Source: Oscillospiraceae bacterium (GTDB lineage: Bacteria > Bacillota > Clostridia > Oscillospirales > Oscillospiraceae). Taken from it: DNA of 9,206 nucleotides. The notes below the pieces were generated by a model that was given only the letters and a program-made list of their open reading frames with translations, had not been told where the DNA came from and made no database searches. The translations under genes were made by a program, and so were the position numbers. This document shows positions 2 through 8,892 of this stretch, one piece after another (position 1 is the stretch's first letter; the number at the start of each line of letters is the position of its first letter). Location: positions 1 to 9,206 of the forward strand of contig JAGCMI010000036.1 of the NCBI GenBank assembly GCA_017646545.1. Direction: 5' to 3'.

Positions 2-1093
2 ATCCTCGCCCAGCTTGATCTTGCGGGTATGGACCTTCAAAGTGTCCAATCTGCCCTGGAAATTGGGTTCATCCACAATGATCTGCCGATCGAAACGGCC
101 GGGACGCAGCAACGCCTTATCCAGAATTTCGGGCCGGTTGGTAGCTGCCAGACACACGATGCCCTTGTTGGAGTCGAAGCCGTCGAATTCGCCCAGCAGC
201 TGGTTCAGAGTCTGGTCATTGTAGCCCAGACGGGAATCTCTGCGGTGACCCACAGCGTCAATTTCGTCAATGAAAATGATGCAGGGAGCCACCTTGGCAG
301 CCTGCTGGAACAGGCTGCGGACACGGCTGGCGCCCACGCCCACGAACATTTCTTCAAAGTCGGAGCCGGAGATGGAGAAGAAGGGGACACCTGCTTCGCC
401 TGCCACGGCCTTGGCAAGCAATGTCTTACCGGTACCGGGGGAGCCGACCAACAGCGCGCCCTTGGGCAGCTTTGCGCCGATTTCGGCATATTTCTGGGGA
501 TTGTGGAGGAAATCAATGATCTCCTGCAGGCTTTCCTTGGCTTCATCCTGACCGGCCACATCCTTGAAGGTGATGCCGGTCTGCTTTTCCATATAGACCT
601 TGGCCTTGTTGTCGCCCATGCCACCGGCAGCACCCATGCGTCGGGTGACGAGGCTCATCACCAGCATCAAACCGCCGATCATCAGCACGTAGGAGAGGAT
701 CATCATAATGAAGGAATTATCCTCCACGATCTTCTCGCTGCCATCGACACCCATTTCATGCAGCCGCTCCAGCAGACCCATATGGTCACCGGTGGGCAGG
801 CCCGTATAGCAGGCACGGCGCTCGTTAGAAGGCTTTTCTGCCTCCTCTTTGGTCATATAGTAGATCCGGTCAGAGTGGATCTCCACCTCGGAGAGGTTTC
901 CTGCCTCCATCTCGGTCAAAAATTCCGAGAAGGTCTTCAGCTCATACTTGCTGGCGTTGATGGAGTTATAAATGCCGGTTGCCAGCAGCACCACCGCCAC
1001 GGCAATCAGCAGCATGGTAAAGACCCGGCCGCGGGGTTTCTTACTGTCGGGATTGTTGTTATTTTTGGAAGAATCGTTGCGATTGGGTTCCAC
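2..1093 (-). CDS. ftsH: FtsH-type ATP-dependent zinc metalloprotease, N-terminal part (runs off left edge)
   Basis: FtsH is a membrane-anchored AAA+ protease that unfolds and degrades membrane and regulatory proteins. The 364 visible residues show a short basic, Asn-rich N terminus, a membrane segment at about 23-41, a short extracytoplasmic domain (42-127), a second membrane segment at 128-149, then the AAA+ module. Walker A GPPGTGKT is at 217-224, the pore loop F-V-G at 250-252, Walker B IIFIDE at 272-277, and the second region of homology begins ATNRPE at 317-322 with arginine-finger candidates R330 and R333. The zinc-site HExxH and protease domain lie outside the window, so protease activity is assumed from the family. 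The start is GTG at 1093-1091, preceded by AAGGAGG at 1110-1104 with 10 bases between; a second GTG at 1100-1098 is out of frame. It is transcribed divergently from rlmB. The linker after Walker B reads [10 protein letters not shown], a variant of the usual E-R-E-Q-T-L-N-Q. Confidence 0.93.
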
Positions 1094-1259: not shown

Positions 1260-1288
1260 TTGAGAAACGAGCCTATTTCTGTTACAAT
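1260..1288 (+). promoter_or_regulatory. sigma-A-type promoter of the rlmB operon
   Basis: TTGAGA (1260-1265) and TACAAT (1283-1288) are separated by 17 bases, and TGT directly before the -10 gives an extended -10 match. The predicted start near 1295 leaves a short leader of about 30 bases carrying GGAG at 1311-1314. Confidence 0.75.
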
Positions 1289-1324: not shown

Positions 1325-2170
1325 ATGAAAGAAGAACGCCGCCGTCCCAACGGCAATTTCCGCCCGGAACGCCCTGAAAAGAAGGAGCGCCCCGTGCGTA
1401 CCGCATACGAGGTTCGTCCCGAACCCAAGGAAGAGGTAGAAGGTCAGCTGGAGGGCAGAAATGCGCTGCAGGAGGCCCTGCGCGCCGGCCGCACCATTGA
1501 CAAGGTATTTATTGCAGCCGGTGATACCGACCGCGCCCTGCAGCGTCTGGCTGCGGAGGCAAAGGATGCCGGTGCTGTGGTGGTGCCGGTGGATCGCCGC
1601 AAGCTGGACAATATGAGCTTCACTCGCTCCCATCAGGGTGTCATCGCCCTGACCGCCGCCCACGAGTATTCCACCATTGATGAGATTTTGCAGGAGGCTG
1701 CCGCCCGTGGCGAAGATGCCCTCATCGTCATCTGCGACGAACTGACGGATCCTCACAATCTGGGTGCCATCCTGCGTACGGCCGAATGTGCCGGTGCGCA
1801 CGGTGTCATTATCCCCAAGCGCCGCAGCGTGGGTCTGACCGCTACTGTGGCAAAGGCTGCTGCCGGCGCCATGGAGTATATGAAGGTGGTGCGTGTCACC
1901 AATATCAACAGCGCCATCGCAGAACTGAAGGAAAAGGGCGTGTGGGTATTCGGCACCGCAGCGGAAGGTTCCGTGCCCATGTACAAGGCCAATCTGGCTG
2001 TGCCTGCCGCCATCGTCATCGGCAACGAAGGTGATGGCATGAGCCCGCTGGTGCGGAAAAACTGCGATGTGATGGTGCATATTCCCATGAAGGGTAAGAT
2101 CTCTTCTCTCAATGCGTCCAATGCCGCATCCATCTTGCTGTATGAGGCGGTGCGTCAGCGGCTTGGCTGA
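1325..2170 (+). CDS. rlmB: 23S rRNA (guanosine-2'-O-)-methyltransferase RlmB, TrmH/SPOUT family
   Basis: This SPOUT-fold enzyme transfers a methyl group from S-adenosylmethionine to a ribose 2'-OH in RNA; the closest family is RlmB/YacO, which modifies 23S rRNA. The 281-residue protein has a basic, disordered N-terminal stretch (1-38) and then a substrate-binding domain opening G-R-N-A at 44-47. The catalytic domain carries all three SPOUT motifs: motif 1 DPHNLGAILRTAE (142-154, with N145 and R151), motif 2 VIGNEGDGM (231-239), and motif 3 beginning IPMKGKISSLNASNAA (253-268), which builds the cofactor-binding knot. I chose ATG 1325 because GGAG lies 10 bases upstream; an in-frame TTG at 1301 is only about six bases from the predicted transcription start and has no ribosome binding site. 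It is the first gene of a unit with the membrane protein 25 bases downstream. The exact RNA target cannot be read from sequence; TrmH-type tRNA or another rRNA position is the alternative. Confidence 0.93.
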   Translation: MKEERRRPNGNFRPERPEKKERPVRTAYEVRPEPKEEVEGQLEGRNALQEALRAGRTIDKVFIAAGDTDRALQRLAAEAKDAGAVVVPVDRRKLDNMSFTRSHQGVIALTAAHEYSTIDEILQEAAARGEDALIVICDELTDPHNLGAILRTAECAGAHGVIIPKRRSVGLTATVAKAAAGAMEYMKVVRVTNINSAIAELKEKGVWVFGTAAEGSVPMYKANLAVPAAIVIGNEGDGMSPLVRKNCDVMVHIPMKGKISSLNASNAASILLYEAVRQRLG

Positions 2171-2195
2171 TTTTCAGAAAAAAGGAGGGTCGTCC

Positions 2196-4280
2196 GTGAA
2201 AGAGGATACCAAGGAATATACGCTGGACGACCTGGAAGATATCATCCGGGAGTACAGCTCCCAACGATTGCCGGATCTGGAGGAACCGCTGCCGGAGGAA
2301 ACACCCTCTGACAAGGGGGACACCATCCGCCTGGGGAAAATGGCGGCTGATACTGTCCGGCTGGGAAAGCAGGAGAGCGACACCATTCGCCTGGGGGGCA
2401 AGGAAGAAAAGCCGGGGGATACCGTTCGCCTGGACAAGGCGGGAAAGCCGGTGCAGAAAAAACCGGCGCAGGATACAAAGCCCTTGCCGGATCCGGACGA
2501 TGATGTGCGGATCTTCCATTCCACCGCCCGTCCCGTGAAAAAGGACACGGTGCCTTATTCTGCCAAATGGGAGCCGGAGTATGATTCCCCCATGGGCAAC
2601 TTCACACCCCAGGAGCCCATTGCATTTCCTGCCAAGAACCGTCCCCAGATATTAAAAGAAAAGCTGGAAAAAGGACCGCAGCAGCGGTACCAGGAACTGA
2701 GCAAAACCGGCCTTGGCCGCCTGCATGCAGGGATGCTGCTGAATCTGTTTTTGTTTCTGGCATCATCTGCCACAGCGATGCTGTATTACAAGGTGGATAT
2801 CCAGCGCCTGCAGCTGATGGTGGTGGGGCAATTGCTGATCTTGCTGCTGTCAGCGCTGGTGGGCGCTAAGCTGCTGCTGGATGGAATCAAGGATCTGTAT
2901 CAGCGCCGGTTCCACATGAGCGGTTTGCTGGTGGTCAGCTTCTTTTTGTGCTGTTTCGATGGCTTGCTCTGCCTCAGCGGCCGCAGCCTGCCCTTCAGCT
3001 CCGTCTTTGTTATGCAGATGCTGATGGCGCAATGGGCCGAATGTCAAAAAAGACAGACGGAAATGAGCCAGATGGATACCCTGCGGAAAGCCTCCGATCT
3101 GACTGCGGTGGTAAAAACACCGGCGTTCTACAAAAACTGCCCGGCCTATCACACGGTGGAGGGACATCCGGAGGATTTTCTGGATCATTATAACCAGGAT
3201 GTGGGGCCTCAAAAGCTGCTGTGCCGCTATGCCTTGGGCGCGGTGATTTTGGGCGGTGTGCTGGCGTTTATCTGCATGATCCTCCACGGCTTTGCCATGG
3301 GCATCCGGGTGTATGCGGCTGCGCTGCTGGCAGCAATGCCCGCCAGCGTTTTTGTGGGCATTGAGCGCCCCATGGCCATTTTGGAAAGACGAATGCACAA
3401 GCTGGGCACCGTGCTTTGCGGTTGGCGCGGCTTGCAGAATATTGAAAAACAAGGCTATTATCCCCTGGGACACAAGGATCTGTTCCCGGAAAATCATGTC
3501 AAACTCAATGGCATGCGCTTTTACGGAGAGCGGAATTTAAATACCATTGTGTCCTATGTGGCAGCCTTGATGGCGGCCGATGGCGGCTCTTTGGCAGGAC
3601 CTTTCGAGCAACTGCGGTCTTCCCGCAATGCCCGGGTCTGCCGGGTGGAGGATTTGACCAGTTATCCCGATGGTGTGGGCGGTCAGATCGACGGACTGTC
3701 TGTCATTGCCGGCACTTTGGAATTTATGGAAAATATGGGTGTGGTGCTGCCCGATGGCGCCCGAATCCCCCATGCGGTATATGCCGCGGTGAACCAGAGC
3801 CTTTGCGCGGTGTTTGCCGTCAGCTTTACCCGTTCCAAATCCTCTGCTTCCGGTCTGCGTACTTTGTGTGACAGCAGCCATGTGCGCCCCATTTTGGTGG
3901 ATTGCGACTTTGCCCTGACCGGGGCATTTTTGGAGCAGAAGCTGGGGGTGGACATTCACAGAATGCAATTTCCCGACAGTATGACCCGCATGAAACTCTC
4001 CCAGAAAAAGCCTGCGGAAAACGCACCGGCCATTGCGCTGGTGACCCGGGGCGGTCTGGCGCAAAAAGCCTATGCGGTTACCGGCGGTGCGGCATTGCGC
4101 TCTGCCTGGCGGGCAGGCGCTGCGGTGCATATTCTGGGCGGTAGCATCGGATTTTTGGCGGTGGCCATTCTGGCGTTGCAGGGCTCATTGTTCTTGCTGA
4201 CCCCATATAATCTGCTGCTGTATGGCTGCGTGTGGATGATTCCGGGTCTGCTGGTGACGGAATGGACCAGAAGTGTTTAA
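2196..4280 (+). CDS. membrane protein of unknown function resembling a catalytically dead P-type ATPase
   Basis: I do not recognise a named family. The 694-residue protein has an acidic, low-complexity N terminus (1-170) containing four D-T-[IV]-R-L repeats. Hydrophobic segments follow at about 178-198, 203-228, 241-261, 264-280, 344-366 and 368-388, then a soluble region (about 395-640) and two more segments at 643-663 and 667-688. That order matches an eight-helix P1B-type ATPase. AAMPAS (379-384) sits where such pumps have the membrane CPC motif. GHKDLFPE (425-432) falls at the DKTGT phosphorylation site, and a G-V-G-G stretch (493-496) falls where the nucleotide-binding domain has a Gly motif. 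DKTGT, TGES and GDGxND are all absent, and the region between helices 4 and 5 is only about 60 residues, too short for a full actuator domain. Translation starts at GTG 2196, with GGAGG at 2184-2188 and 7 bases between. An upstream in-frame ATG at 2112 lies inside rlmB and lacks such a site. It is co-transcribed with rlmB. The P-type ancestry is my inference from layout. Confidence 0.6.
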   Translation: MKEDTKEYTLDDLEDIIREYSSQRLPDLEEPLPEETPSDKGDTIRLGKMAADTVRLGKQESDTIRLGGKEEKPGDTVRLDKAGKPVQKKPAQDTKPLPDPDDDVRIFHSTARPVKKDTVPYSAKWEPEYDSPMGNFTPQEPIAFPAKNRPQILKEKLEKGPQQRYQELSKTGLGRLHAGMLLNLFLFLASSATAMLYYKVDIQRLQLMVVGQLLILLLSALVGAKLLLDGIKDLYQRRFHMSGLLVVSFFLCCFDGLLCLSGRSLPFSSVFVMQMLMAQWAECQKRQTEMSQMDTLRKASDLTAVVKTPAFYKNCPAYHTVEGHPEDFLDHYNQDVGPQKLLCRYALGAVILGGVLAFICMILHGFAMGIRVYAAALLAAMPASVFVGIERPMAILERRMHKLGTVLCGWRGLQNIEKQGYYPLGHKDLFPENHVKLNGMRFYGERNLNTIVSYVAALMAADGGSLAGPFEQLRSSRNARVCRVEDLTSYPDGVGGQIDGLSVIAGTLEFMENMGVVLPDGARIPHAVYAAVNQSLCAVFAVSFTRSKSSASGLRTLCDSSHVRPILVDCDFALTGAFLEQKLGVDIHRMQFPDSMTRMKLSQKKPAENAPAIALVTRGGLAQKAYAVTGGAALRSAWRAGAAVHILGGSIGFLAVAILALQGSLFLLTPYNLLLYGCVWMIPGLLVTEWTRSV
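2319..2438 (+). repeat. four D-T-[IV]-R-L repeats in the membrane protein
   Basis: Residues 42-81 of the membrane protein hold DTIRLGK, DTVRLGK, DTIRLGG and DTVRLDK, starting at residues 42, 52, 62 and 75, so the period is 10, 10 and 13 residues. The DNA copies differ at several synonymous positions (ATC, GTC, ATT and GTT for the third residue), so the peptide looks conserved rather than freshly duplicated. The segment precedes the first membrane helix and would lie in the cytoplasm under the P-type topology. Confidence 0.8.
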
Positions 4281-4285
4281 GTATG

Positions 4286-4321
4286 AAAAAGGAGCACGGC
4301 AAAAGCCGTGCTCTTTTTTTA
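4286..4321. terminator. intrinsic terminator between converging units, probably bidirectional
   Basis: GAGCACGGC (4292-4300), loop AAAA, and GCCGTGCTC (4305-4313) form a perfect 9-bp GC-rich stem followed by seven T residues (4314-4320) on the plus strand. On the minus strand the same stem is followed by five T residues (4290-4286). It closes the rlmB unit 11 bases after its stop and can also stop transcription of the ABC operon coming from the other side. Confidence 0.92.
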
Positions 4322-4573: not shown

Positions 4574-6325
4574 TTAGGTCTGCAGCGGATTCATCGCCTT
4601 GTATTCCTCAATCCACTGATTCAAATGGGGGGCATCCTTGCTGAAATACAGGACGCGGTACTGATAGTTCGTCAGCCGGTATTCAATCACGCCCACATCC
4701 AGATATTTATCAAAAAATTCCGGGCTTCTGTAGATATACCCCTCCAGGGCATCTGCCCATAGCGCGTTTAGCAAGGAGCCGTACATCTCTTCCGGCAGTT
4801 TGTCGATGCCGTCTAAGAAAAGGTAATCGATCTGGTAGATTAGATTTTCCACGGAGGCAGCGCCTAAGAGGTATTCCGGGTTCAGCAGATACTGCTGCAG
4901 GCGGCTGCGGGCCTGCCCATTGTAGTAGATGCGGTAGGTGCGGCTGACGGTGTTGCCGTTTTTCAGCTTGTACAGGATGGTGAAATAGCCGCCGTCATGG
5001 TTGTCGGAGTGCTTATTTTCTTCCATCATGAGGCGATGGATGTCGCAAATGTTGGCGATATCGGCAGGATCGGTCACTTCTATCTCTGGTTCCCAGCTGA
5101 TGTGGTTAAGGTTCAATTGATAGTCGCTGAGGCGGCCTTCATAGAGATACACCTTTTCCACCCGTTCTGCCTTGGGCACCCGACGGGAGATGCCCACGGG
5201 GTCGACCCATGTCAGCAGCAGGCTGAGAATCACCGCGCCATACAAAAGGCCCATGCCCGCAAAGCTTTTGCGACCGAAGACCCGGATGGTGCGCTCCAGC
5301 AGCATTTTGCCGGTGAAATGGCCGATGGCGGTGCCGATGACGAAGAAAACGAATCCGGTGGAATTATCACCCATGGCTTCGCCCAACATAAACAGAAAAG
5401 CCCCAAGACAAAGGCTGTAAATGGTGAGGAAAATGGGCTTCATGGGCTTGAAAGCCATGAAATCGCCCGCCCGTTCCAAATCTCTGCGGCGGTAGAGCAC
5501 CAGACCCAGCGCCAGCAGCACGATGCCGATGCCGGCAAGAATCCACAGATACCACCACTGACCACCCAGACCTTGGAAAACATAGTCGTGGGGACCGTCA
5601 TATTCAAAGTAATAACTGGTCGGGTATTTGACATCATTGCAGGGGCAGGTGGACGGATGATGGACGGTAAAGAAATCGTCCAGACCGGATAGGTTTACCA
5701 AGGGGCAGAAATAATGGAATACGGAGGTGTTGTTGCGCACACCGGGCAGCAGCGGCAGATAAATGGTATTTACAAACCAATTGACGATCAGCGCAAGGAA
5801 ATTCACCAGACCATAGATGGCGGTGGCGGCAAAGCGGTTGCCGGTGGCCATCATGCAAACTGCCGCAAGGGCAAAGAAGAACAGATAATGCAGCGCTATA
5901 CCGCCGAAGCAAAGCAGTCCCATGAACCAGAACTTGCCCATAAAGGGCATGAGCGTCAGGGCAATCACCAGCGTGGGGGCAAGACCCATCCAAAGACCGG
6001 AAGTCACATGGCTCACATACCAGCTTTCACGCCGCAGAGGCAGGGCGTGAAGGCCGTAGCACAGACGGGTGTTGTGCAGGTCGCCAAACACCAGCTGGGC
6101 GCAGAGGAAGCCGTAAATGCCGCTGAAAATGCCCATGGGGCCGATGATGTCGTTTAGATTTCTGGCCAGTCGGTAGGCCTGGGTGCCGTAATAGACATCG
6201 TAAAACCCGGAGGCGGTGTGCATCATGAGCAGACCGCCGATGAGATACAAAGCCCAAAGGGGGAAGAACCGGGTCAGATCTTTTTTGAGGACGGTCTTAT
6301 CAAAGAACGATGTTCTTAACTTCAT
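4574..6325 (-). CDS. ABC transporter permease with large extracytoplasmic C-terminal domain, probably truncated
   Basis: This is the membrane subunit of the ABC system encoded upstream. The 583 residues show about nine hydrophobic segments (near 20-37, 60-80, 108-128, 132-155, 165-190, 255-277, 297-317, 322-340 and 355-373). Basic stretches at 97-99, 278-285 and 341-352 fall on the cytoplasmic side, which places the loop 191-254 and everything after 374 outside the membrane. The outer loop holds H222, H223, C227 and C229. The hydrophilic C-terminal domain (from 374) recalls the large extracellular domains of permeases found beside YtrA-type regulators and may match the DUF6449 group, but I cannot check this. 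Translation starts at ATG 6325, which overlaps the ATPase gene by 26 bases, with GGGAGGTG just upstream; translational coupling is likely. The reading frame ends at a TAA, after which 84 more coding-like codons follow. The substrate is unknown. Confidence 0.82.
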   Translation of the reverse strand: MKLRTSFFDKTVLKKDLTRFFPLWALYLIGGLLMMHTASGFYDVYYGTQAYRLARNLNDIIGPMGIFSGIYGFLCAQLVFGDLHNTRLCYGLHALPLRRESWYVSHVTSGLWMGLAPTLVIALTLMPFMGKFWFMGLLCFGGIALHYLFFFALAAVCMMATGNRFAATAIYGLVNFLALIVNWFVNTIYLPLLPGVRNNTSVFHYFCPLVNLSGLDDFFTVHHPSTCPCNDVKYPTSYYFEYDGPHDYVFQGLGGQWWYLWILAGIGIVLLALGLVLYRRRDLERAGDFMAFKPMKPIFLTIYSLCLGAFLFMLGEAMGDNSTGFVFFVIGTAIGHFTGKMLLERTIRVFGRKSFAGMGLLYGAVILSLLLTWVDPVGISRRVPKAERVEKVYLYEGRLSDYQLNLNHISWEPEIEVTDPADIANICDIHRLMMEENKHSDNHDGGYFTILYKLKNGNTVSRTYRIYYNGQARSRLQQYLLNPEYLLGAASVENLIYQIDYLFLDGIDKLPEEMYGSLLNALWADALEGYIYRSPEFFDKYLDVGVIEYRLTNYQYRVLYFSKDAPHLNQWIEEYKAMNPLQT

Positions 6326-7181
6326 AGTTCACACCTCCCAGTTCGTAAATAAAGATCTCTTCCAGAGAAAGGGGCAGAAGGTCGAAATAGACGGGATTGG
6401 TCTGCTGCACCACGGAACGCACCTGCTCCATGGAGCCCCGGAGGATCAGGGTCTTGAGGCGACCGGAGCTGGTTTCATGGAGAATGTCCAAGCCTTCCGG
6501 CACATCGCCCACCAGCTGCAGCTTGGTGACGGAGCCCTGCATATCGGCAAGACTTCTCTCCAACAGGATGCGGCCGGAATCCATGATGCCCACATGGTCG
6601 CACACATCTTCCAATTCTCTCAAATTGTGGCTGGAAACCAGCACCGTGGTCTGCCGCTGGGCCACATCGGAAAGCAGCAAACTCCACACCTGACGGCGCA
6701 TGACGGGATCCAAGCCGTCCACCGGCTCGTCGAGGATCATCACATCCGGGCGGCAGCACAACGCCAAGTGGAAGGCGGCCTGCTTCTGCATGCCCTTACT
6801 GAAGCGGCGGATGGGACTTTTCTTGGGCAATTGGAATACTTCATACAGCCGCTGGAACAGGTCATCGTCAAATTGGGGATAAATGCCCTTGTAGAATTTT
6901 CGCATCTCCTCTAGTGTGGCAGAGGGGAAGTAGAAAATATCATCGGGGATATAGGCCATGCGGGATTTGATGGCGGGGTTTTCGTAAATGGGCAGACCCT
7001 CCATGGTCACTTCGCCGCTGTCCTGCCGGTAGATGCCGGTGAGGTGGCGGATGGCGGTGCTCTTGCCGGCACCGTTGGGGCCGACGAGACCGTAAACGGC
7101 ACCCTTGGGCACGGTGAGGGTCAGATCGTCCAATGCCTTGAAGCGGTCAAAGCATTTGGTGACATGTTTCATTTCAAGCAT
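6300..7181 (-). CDS. ABC transporter ATP-binding protein (YtrB/CcmA-like)
   Basis: This cytoplasmic nucleotide-binding subunit powers the adjacent permease. In its 293 residues Walker A GPNGAGKST is at 34-42, the signature region RFSKGMQKQ at 126-134 (a divergent form of LSGGQ), Walker B VMILDEP at 147-153, the D-loop GLDP at 156-159 and the H-loop histidine at 185. The usual Q-loop glutamine is replaced by the sequence AYIPDD (76-81), as often seen in export or multidrug-type ATPases with a YLPE-like motif. Residues from about 215 form a C-terminal extension of the CcmA type. ATG 7181 follows the gntR stop by one base, and its ribosome binding site AAGGAGGT is formed by the last codons of gntR. 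No other promoter is visible, so expression should follow the GntR-controlled promoter. Efflux or an envelope-stress role is inferred from the YtrAB-like arrangement. Confidence 0.92.
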   Translation of the reverse strand: MLEMKHVTKCFDRFKALDDLTLTVPKGAVYGLVGPNGAGKSTAIRHLTGIYRQDSGEVTMEGLPIYENPAIKSRMAYIPDDIFYFPSATLEEMRKFYKGIYPQFDDDLFQRLYEVFQLPKKSPIRRFSKGMQKQAAFHLALCCRPDVMILDEPVDGLDPVMRRQVWSLLLSDVAQRQTTVLVSSHNLRELEDVCDHVGIMDSGRILLERSLADMQGSVTKLQLVGDVPEGLDILHETSSGRLKTLILRGSMEQVRSVVQQTNPVYFDLLPLSLEEIFIYELGGVNYEVKNIVL

Positions 7182-7182
7182 C

Positions 7183-7536
7183 TTACTTACCTCCTTCTTG
7201 CAGGCGCAGGATCAGTTCTTCCCGGCTGATGCCGGCCTCCAGCAGACTTTTCGTCAGCTTGTCAAAGGATTCCAGCAGATCCTGCTGGGGATTGGCGTCC
7301 GGAATGCTGTGGACAAAGCAGCCCTTGCCCGGCACGGTGGCGATCCAGCCGGCGCTTTCCAGTTCCCGGTAAGCCCGCTGGATGGTGTTGGGGTTGATGG
7401 TGAGTGTGGTGGCCAGTTCCCGGACGCTGGGCAGCTTGTCGCCAATCTGCAGCACCCCGGAACGGATCTGATCCCGGAAGCCGTCCACGATCTGGGTATA
7501 GATGGGTCGGGCATCCCGGTAGTCAAGATGTACCAT
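7183..7536 (-). CDS. GntR-family transcriptional regulator, YtrA-like
   Basis: This short 117-residue regulator has a winged helix-turn-helix at about 9-77. The family signature is clear in PIYTQIVDGFRDQIRSG (11-27), LPSVRELA (35-42) and the recognition-helix region NPNTIQRAYRELE (48-60), followed by the wing around 66-76. The C-terminal part (about 85-117) is only a short helical stretch, as in the YtrA subfamily, which lacks a large ligand-binding domain and usually represses its own ABC operon. I chose ATG 7536 because AAGGAGGG lies 6 bases upstream; a longer frame opening at GTG 7599 would begin upstream of the predicted transcription start. It is the first gene of the operon, and a palindrome at its promoter is the likely binding site. 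The inducer is unknown; cell-wall-active compounds are the precedent from B. subtilis YtrA. Confidence 0.93.
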   Translation of the reverse strand: MVHLDYRDARPIYTQIVDGFRDQIRSGVLQIGDKLPSVRELATTLTINPNTIQRAYRELESAGWIATVPGKGCFVHSIPDANPQQDLLESFDKLTKSLLEAGISREELILRLQEGGK

Positions 7537-7568
7537 AACAGTCCCTCCTTGTGTATGAAGTGTATCAA

Positions 7569-7582
7569 CTGTACTAGTACAG
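7569..7582. promoter_or_regulatory. probable GntR operator, 14-bp perfect palindrome
   Basis: CTGTACTAGTACAG is a perfect palindrome lying two bases downstream of the gntR -10 box and covering the expected transcription start, an ideal place for repression. A wider pair, GTGTATGA (7551-7558) and TCATACAC (7586-7593), surrounds it, and a further GTGTAT lies at 7560-7565. Binding by the GntR protein encoded next door is inferred from position and symmetry. Confidence 0.7.
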
Positions 7583-7584
7583 AT

Positions 7585-7613
7585 ATCATACACTACCATG
7601 CGGTGCTTGTCAA
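7585..7613 (-). promoter_or_regulatory. sigma-A promoter of the gntR-ABC operon
   Basis: On the minus strand a consensus TTGACA (7613-7608) and TATGAT (7590-7585) are separated by exactly 17 bases. The start is expected near 7578, inside the palindrome. A promoter this strong suits an operon that is kept off by a repressor. Confidence 0.85.
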
Positions 7614-7707: not shown

Positions 7708-8892
7708 TTAAACGGCGGACAGACTATTGACCGCATTCAGCAGGCGCTCCATAGCCTCCTCCACCACGCTGCGGGGGCAGGCCAGAACCACTCTCTGGAA
7801 CAGGGCAGAACATTCACCGAAGATACTGCCGGTGTCCAACCAGATGCGCGCCTTGTGGAGAATCAGATCATCCAGCTGCTGCTTCGTCAGTCCCAGACCG
7901 GTGCAATCCAGCCAAGCCACATAAGTGCCTTCCGGCTCTACCAGCTTGATTTGAGGCAGCTTCTCCTGCAAGAATGCCCGGACATAGGCAAGATTTCCCT
8001 GCATATAGGCCTTGCATTCTTCCAGCCATGCCTCGCCGCCGTTGTAGGCAGCCTTGCATGCCACAAAACCCAGCATATTGGGTTCCCGGATAGCGGCAGA
8101 TTCCAGCTTTGCCTTGAAAGCGGCTCTGAGCTGCTCACCGGGGATGAAGATGTTGGAAGTCCGCAGACCGGCAAGGTTAAAACTCTTACTGGGGGAGGTG
8201 CAGACCACGGTGTTATCTTCCAGCTGGGGGCAAGCCTTCAGGAAGGGGGTGTGGGGATGACCGGGGAAGGCGAAGTCGCTGTGCAGTTCATCGGAAACCA
8301 CGGTCAGATTGTACTTCTCTGCCAGAGCGCCCACGGCTTGCAGTTCTTCTGCCGTCCACACACGACCCACGGGATTGTGGGGATTGCACAGCAGCAGAAG
8401 TTTCACATTGTTGTCGCGAATCTTCTGCTCCATGTCCTCAAAATTCATGGTGTAGCGGCCGTTTTCGTAATTGAGGTGATTTTCCACCAGATGACGGTTG
8501 TTCAGCCGAATGACATCATAGAAGGGGTAGTACACGGGGGGCATCACCAGCACGCTGTCGCCCTCTTTCGTGGCGGCGCGGACGGTGGCAGCCAGAGCGG
8601 TGTCGGAGCCGGGGGTGTGCATCATCCACTCTCGCTTCACTTCCCAGCCATGATGGCGCAGAAACCAGCCGCGGACAGCTTCAAAATAGCTTTCGTCCGG
8701 CAGGCTGTAGCCGAAAATGCCGAATTCCACCGCGTCCCGTAGGGCATCCTGCACGCACTGGGGCGCGCGGAAGTCCATATCTGCCACCCACATGGCAAGG
8801 GTGTCCATGGGATAGCCGTTTCTGGGGATGGAATCAAATTTGGTGCAGGCCGTTCCGAAACGGTCAATTTTCTCGTCAAAAATCTGCTTCAT
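7708..8892 (-). CDS. patB: MalY/PatB-family PLP-dependent C-S lyase (cystathionine beta-lyase-like) or aminotransferase
   Basis: Members of this fold-type I family use pyridoxal phosphate and often cleave the C-S bond of cystathionine or cysteine conjugates, giving homocysteine or a thiol plus pyruvate and ammonia. The 394-residue length is normal. The N terminus has the family signature MWVADMDF (34-41) and FGYSLPDESYF (60-70). Further motifs are CNPHNPVGR (169-177), SDELHSDF (200-207) with cofactor-ring contacts, TSPSKSFNLAGL (232-243) with the Schiff-base lysine K236, and ACPR ending at R374, expected to bind the substrate carboxylate. The usual glycine-rich FGxxGxGF-R segment is altered to F-G-E-C-S-A-L-F-Q-R. 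ATG 8892 has only a weak ribosome binding site (GAGATGAG). It has its own promoter and terminator, so it is monocistronic. Substrate choice within the family cannot be read from sequence, so an aminotransferase role remains possible. Confidence 0.88.
   Translation of the reverse strand: MKQIFDEKIDRFGTACTKFDSIPRNGYPMDTLAMWVADMDFRAPQCVQDALRDAVEFGIFGYSLPDESYFEAVRGWFLRHHGWEVKREWMMHTPGSDTALAATVRAATKEGDSVLVMPPVYYPFYDVIRLNNRHLVENHLNYENGRYTMNFEDMEQKIRDNNVKLLLLCNPHNPVGRVWTAEELQAVGALAEKYNLTVVSDELHSDFAFPGHPHTPFLKACPQLEDNTVVCTSPSKSFNLAGLRTSNIFIPGEQLRAAFKAKLESAAIREPNMLGFVACKAAYNGGEAWLEECKAYMQGNLAYVRAFLQEKLPQIKLVEPEGTYVAWLDCTGLGLTKQQLDDLILHKARIWLDTGSIFGECSALFQRVVLACPRSVVEEAMERLLNAVNSLSAV

Follow-up and report, generated by a model that had tools for sequence, protein, structure and literature searches.

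An rlmB-linked pseudoenzyme of the P-type ATPase superfamily with a probable scaffold or sensor role in Oscillospiraceae

The stretch of DNA analysed here, 9,206 nucleotides of an Oscillospiraceae bacterium genome (GenBank assembly GCA_017646545.1, contig JAGCMI010000036.1; below, the window), encodes behind rlmB a membrane protein that is almost certainly a pseudoenzyme of the P-type ATPase superfamily, with a homologous fold, no catalytic motifs and a sequence kept under purifying selection. The favoured role of this pseudo-ATPase, to which we assign a probability of about 0.6, is that of a membrane-anchored scaffold or sensor. A first-pass annotation made from the sequence alone had described an ancient pump turned into a non-hydrolysing membrane protein, perhaps a sensor or scaffold, and the profile matches, loss of motifs, selection and genomic place support this description; the open reading frame (ORF), with its GTG start and its stop, had also been drawn correctly.

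Searches of Pfam, NCBIfam and the PDB with the single sequence of the window protein gave no useful match. Profiles were compared with hhalign, using an alignment of 40 order-wide family members (A3) and a narrower one (A1). A3 matched a set of 27 intact P1B pumps from related genomes with a probability of 99.8% and an E-value of 1.1e-29 over 485 columns, as against 1.1e-6 for seven P-type ATPases outside P1B; a reversed P1B profile gave 0.034 and 20 column-shuffled profiles gave 0.34 or higher. With A1, the E-values were 1.2e-10 for P1B and 0.0013 for the other P-types. The matches lie with P1B, in agreement with the pump plan proposed earlier. Scans of 30 A1 members returned weak P1B matches (TIGR01511 in 6/30, best E 1.9e-4; CopA in 3/30, best E 1.3e-5), and residues 461-592 of the window protein matched an intact P1B pump of the same genome (E 2.4e-4; pairwise BLASTP, E 3e-6). 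The A3 profile matched 365 of 391 genomes of the class at E ≤ 1e-5, the best match outside the order reaching 8.3e-38; the 13 best out-of-order matches, which were those fetched, all possess DKTGT, GDGxND, TGE[SPA] and CPC, so the family profile recognises real pumps. Judged by its P1B profile match, the window protein is a P-type ATPase homologue.

For counts within the family 263 members were collected, 242 of them unique; some counts refer to 205 near members and to a distant set of 37 that includes the window's own gene (L178), leaving 36 distant members. The copper type was favoured over the zinc type in profile comparison (E 3.8e-31 versus 2.7e-21); in a tree of the helix 6 and N/P region (37 of the 242 members used) the family groups with the zinc type with support of 1.0, the family clade itself having 0.59.

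In the AlphaFold2 model, helices at residues 174-199, 202-222, 241-262, 268-297, 337-364, 366-380, 621-662 and 670-693 follow the 4+2+2 order previously read from the sequence, and an N/P headpiece is placed between helices 6 and 7, as in the P1B fold. Eight membrane helices carrying a cytosolic N/P headpiece are thereby predicted. Hydropathy alone (≥ 1.4) recovers seven of the eight helices, missing 268-297, and yields a single spurious peak, located in the N domain. The actuator region had been estimated at about 60 residues; it actually measures about 40 after helix 4, and over the 242 members the corresponding linker spans 37-62 residues, the median being 39.

Neither GDGxND nor CPC occurs in any of the 242 members. 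DKTG is found in none of them at the phosphorylation site, being seen only within the N-terminal tails of two, and TGES is likewise absent save within the tail of one. The SPC, TPC or CPH matches in the eight members listed all lie far downstream of the helix 6 metal site. At the CPC position the window protein has AAMPAS, as had been noticed, with P382 aligned to the CPC proline. GHKDLFP falls on the DKTGT site; since it aligns gaplessly, column for column, on DKTGTLT, the phosphorylated Asp is replaced by G425. The pair R391-P392, assigned earlier to the T-P position, is two residues beyond it in the profile alignment. DGVGGQIDG belongs to the N domain, and the LTGD site is occupied by VDCD, whose Asp (D571) is retained in 239 of 242 members. 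The GDGxND site of the window protein coincides with a gap of about 30 residues in the profile alignment and, by length, could be occupied by TRGGLA (617-622); as read from the sequence, GDGxND is absent under either alignment. The proposed loss of all catalytic motifs stands for DKTGT, TGES, GDGxND and CPC at their sites, but across the wider family it varies: 31 of 36 distant members keep an Asp at position 425 or 426, and some nearer relatives, such as P0059 and P0064, still have TGD. Because these motifs are absent, ATP hydrolysis and pumping are unlikely, and the window protein would perform neither.

The old phosphorylation site is conserved in its altered form, with D428 in 222, L429 in 218, F430 in 221 and P431 in 235 of the 242 members, which answers the question of DLFP conservation raised in the first-pass annotation. 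Position 426 is Asp in 127 members and His in 78. A residual phosphohydrolase of the HAD type, in which D-x-D-[LI]-[FY]-P at this site would resemble HAD motif I, would fit the DxD at 426/428 in 117/242 members, a position that we take to be equivalent to motif I, and the Asp that 31 of the 36 distant members have at one of positions 425 and 426; the P domain would then have reverted to phosphatase chemistry. Such an activity is nevertheless quite unlikely: the window protein has H426 in place of the first Asp and so lacks the DxD of motif I, the acidic pair of motif IV is missing with GDGxND in all 242 (the window has TRGG or a gap), and Thr occupies the LTGD Thr position (column 569) in 71/242. 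The retention of the Asp in so many distant members suggests that it may have decayed late, the other machinery earlier.

The gene is under purifying selection. NG86 ratios of nonsynonymous to synonymous substitution (dN/dS) were 0.016-0.15 in 12 non-overlapping pairs (from 64 pairs of 80-99.5% identity), and 0-0.12 over 190 codons of the headpiece in the 11 measurable pairs. In a search of 5.8 billion proteins, 7998 candidates were scored and 677 homologues were found at E ≤ 1e-3; among the 120 listed, seven are named, and every name is 'hypothetical protein'. The frame is free of internal stops in all 37 genus genomes. Decay into a pseudogene, or an error of assembly or reading frame, would account for the absent motifs and for two distant members with split or late-starting frames (L137 and L033), but both readings are contradicted by the dN/dS values and the conservation. 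The split frame, L137:1421-3648 (+), comprises 565 and 180 residues.

Headpiece and membrane part are equally conserved (mean top-residue frequency 0.55-0.61 and 0.54-0.63, respectively). Such conservation of the membrane helices would also suit a membrane half that binds or conducts an ion without ATP, either as a passive channel for ions or metals or as a sensor of metals; this is the main rival to the scaffold or sensor role, and a less likely one. A candidate site exists in C252/D255/C259 (C-x2-D-x3-C in helix 3, window 2949-2972), all three residues being present in 187 of the 205 near members. Against this, the CPC of the pumps is found in no member, and the Cys-Asp-Cys pattern occurs in a single one of the 37 in the distant set, probably the window's own copy.

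The family is widespread in the order. A search of 60 related genomes with A1 matched 48, comprising every one of the 37 genus genomes, the window's among them, and 11 of the 23 that represent the order's other families; rlmB (TIGR00186) was matched in 60/60, in 59 over the cut-off. Eleven of the 12 genomes unmatched by A1 have a divergent member behind rlmB (E 2.4e-54 to 5.6e-89), so the first tally reflects a limit of sensitivity rather than absence; in the one remaining genome (G040), the contig ends at rlmB. The class sample includes 18 genomes from the order, of which 17 matched A3 at E 1.9e-95 or better. The named carriers are metagenome-assembled genomes; most bear the title Oscillospiraceae, and the sample names of many refer to animal gut.

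The place behind rlmB, described earlier as fixed, proved to be nearly so. Of 112 loci fetched for their neighbourhood, 108 had at least 400 upstream bases. All but one of the 108 have rlmB upstream in the same orientation; the distance is at most 200 bases at 106 of these 107 loci and 1106 bases at L033, where the frame starts late. At L135 and L139, the rlmB ORF had been displaced from the ORF list by longer antisense ORFs and was placed by its TIGR00186 match. The sole exception, L029:1637-5284 (+) in genome G037, has obg (Pfam), likewise a gene linked to the large subunit, upstream instead, preceded by apparent L21 and L27 genes (sequence reading). Among the 96 loci long enough to show it, 27 have an EF-G paralogue downstream, within 3 kb and in the same orientation (e.g. 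L140:514-2565 (-)), and L148 has a LepA gene. The locus counts are not independent, because most loci share recent ancestry.

Live enzymes are often regulated by catalytically dead partners, and the protein could join an intact P1B pump of its own cell as a pseudo-subunit of this kind; all 15 genomes checked had P-type ATPase matches (PF00122) that exceeded the cut-off. However, the recurrent identified neighbours are rlmB and translation GTPases, and a pump-like frame with DKTGT occurs in the flanks of 1 of 128 fetched loci (L124; median locus 9.2 kb), which speaks against a local pump partner and makes this explanation unlikely.

A pump fold without the motifs for ATP use, in a family nearly always found beside rlmB, makes a job other than pumping likely. 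As a scaffold or sensor, the headpiece, conserved as well as the membrane part, would bind a partner protein or small ligand without a phosphoenzyme cycle, and the long N-terminal tail might recruit or release partners. Within the window's genus, this partner step could be controlled or tuned by phosphorylation of the tail's DT[VI]RL repeats on Ser/Thr. The presence of rlmB, of the EF-G paralogue at some loci and of obg once hints weakly at translation or 50S assembly at the membrane. A far more specific proposal is an order-wide docking hub, whose headpiece would anchor to the membrane a factor for translation or 50S assembly and whose DT[VI]RL array, phosphorylated by a Ser/Thr kinase in the genus, would be read by the FHA domain of an FHA-FtsW/RodA (SEDS) cell-wall polymerase. 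This proposal is a long shot; if true, it would tie protein synthesis to cell-wall growth.

The tail contains two recurrent elements. Of the 205 near members, 189 have the LDDLEDIIREY-type helix motif, and 17 of the distant set of 37 have a looser version of it; the corresponding DNA pattern gave eight sites in 10 genomes, six of them by position in the pseudo-ATPase gene. The strict repeat motif [DE]T[VI][RP][LFIM] occurs in 154/205 near members, averaging 1.31 copies per tail where shuffled tails average 0.004, and in one of the distant set, which is the window's own gene, hence in 0/36. Enrichment of the DNA pattern D-T-[VIM]-[RS]-[LF] in the window's own genome was rejected, with eight sites against eight in the reversed control; four of the eight are inside the pseudo-ATPase gene. 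PknA-dependent Thr sites are enriched in an acidic residue at -1, Pro at +2 and Leu/Val at +3, according to extracts of a published study (PMC7164672). The Thr sites of the window tail fit this preference at -1 and +3, with Arg at +2 instead, and by this motif resemblance the tail Thr residues are putative kinase substrates that an FHA domain could read. All 12 genus genomes of at least 90% completeness encode FHA proteins; in the best matches fetched, one per genome, 11/12 end in a SEDS-like region (sequence reading), and both of two scanned with Pfam have FHA plus FTSW_RODA_SPOVE. Proteins of this kind of about 580 residues (L216-L224, L226 and L227) recur in the genus.

Several observations weigh against the scaffold or sensor role, or against its details. 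Of the near members, 51 of 205 lack the repeats, as do 36 of 36 distant ones, and hence the repeats are not the core function. FHA proteins occur without repeats in 8 of 21 distant genomes, so their co-occurrence, considered as support for the tail model, gives none, and no FHA protein was found in the window's own genome, which is 62% complete. Most distant members, with their Asp at 425 or 426, may retain some chemistry at the phosphorylation position. One genome of the order (G390) has a pump-level match only (E 1.9e-17), and the conserved position behind rlmB may simply have been inherited.

The features of the window are listed in Table 1. The pseudo-ATPase GTG begins 25 bases after the end of rlmB, and promoter, rlmB, pseudo-ATPase and terminator appear to form a single unit. 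The promoter evidence is weak, because the window scan gave three sites versus 1.9 expected in shuffled sequences.

Table 1. Features of the pseudo-ATPase gene and its unit (positions in the window)
Feature	Position	Strand	Basis
Sigma-70-like promoter TTGAGA-17-TACAAT, ahead of rlmB and pseudo-ATPase	1260..1288	+	consensus scan, 10/12 matches
rlmB, 23S rRNA (guanosine-2251) 2'-O-methyltransferase, conserved upstream neighbour	1325..2170	+	TIGR00186, E 2.1e-70
Ribosome-binding-like AGGAGGG	2183..2189	+	sequence reading; 6 bases 5' of pseudo-ATPase GTG
Pseudo-P1B-ATPase	2196..4280	+	694 residues, GTG start; open frame read in window, profile, model, motif counts
Short N-terminal helix LDDLEDIIREY, residues 10-20	2223..2255	+	helix in low-confidence tail of model
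Four DT[VI]RL repeats in low-confidence N-terminal tail, partly like Ser/Thr-kinase acceptor sites	2319..2432	+	motif counts
Membrane helices 1-4, residues 174-299	2715..3092	+	model
Actuator-region remnant, two strands, residues 300-336, without TGES	3093..3203	+	model, motif and length counts
Membrane helices 5-6 plus following stalk, residues 337-403	3204..3404	+	model
AMPAS at CPC metal site	3333..3347	+	profile alignment, member motif counts
GHKDLFP at DKTGTLT phosphorylation site, residues 425-431	3468..3488	+	motif counts, alignment
N-domain fold, residues 433-545	3492..3830	+	
Remaining P domain, residues 546-620, GDGxND absent	3831..4055	+	model, profile alignment, motif counts
VDCD at LTGD site, Asp kept, Thr lost	3897..3908	+	motif counts, alignment
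Membrane helices 7-8, residues 621-694	4056..4277	+	model
Intrinsic terminator directly 3' of pseudo-ATPase stop	4285..4320	+	-24.5 kcal/mol, z -8.7; scan match too

Elsewhere in the window, an FtsH-like protease gene (2-1093 (-), sequence reading) runs off the edge, and 7708-8892 (-) encodes a PatB-family C-S lyase (TIGR04350, E 1.3e-128). The 583-residue, apparently membrane-bound product of 4574-6325 (-) (sequence reading) has no Pfam or NCBIfam match; its gene adjoins those of an ABC ATPase and a GntR regulator (6300-7181 (-) and 7183-7599 (-)), which resemble PmtA and PmtR below model cut-offs, and it is probably an unannotated ABC permease.

P-type ATPases have, to our knowledge, been studied almost entirely as pumps. 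In the literature covered, which was mainly open-access and consisted of listings and the beginnings of abstracts, no bacterial P-type pseudoenzyme family was found, and one kept across an order would, as far as that literature reaches, be undescribed. The family offers a natural test of what an N/P headpiece can do without ATP chemistry, and a conserved, unannotated gene behind rlmB can now be defined by profile and motifs and recognised in other genomes of the order.

With P1B (CPx) ATPases such as Legionella CopA (4bbj), ATP7B and ZntA, the window family shares its profile, the 4+2+2 plan and the fold of the N/P headpiece; it differs in lacking DKTGT, TGES, GDGxND and CPC at their sites, in its short actuator region, in its long low-confidence N-terminal tail and in its place behind rlmB. 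KdpB and P2-type ATPases have the same superfamily fold with lower Z in structure comparison, KdpB having been compared by structure only, and the profile match to the seven P-types outside P1B is the weaker one. HAD-superfamily phosphatases resemble the family at the motif I DxD of some members, whereas the window reads H-x-D and GDGxND (P-type motif IV) is missing throughout. The nearest precedent found is the degenerate P4-ATPase domain of the apicomplexan guanylate cyclase PfGC-beta, as described in excerpts of PMC6592433; that domain is eukaryotic, of the P4 class and fused to a cyclase, whereas the window family is bacterial, derives from P1B ATPases, stands on its own without a fused domain, and is both order-wide and syntenic with rlmB.
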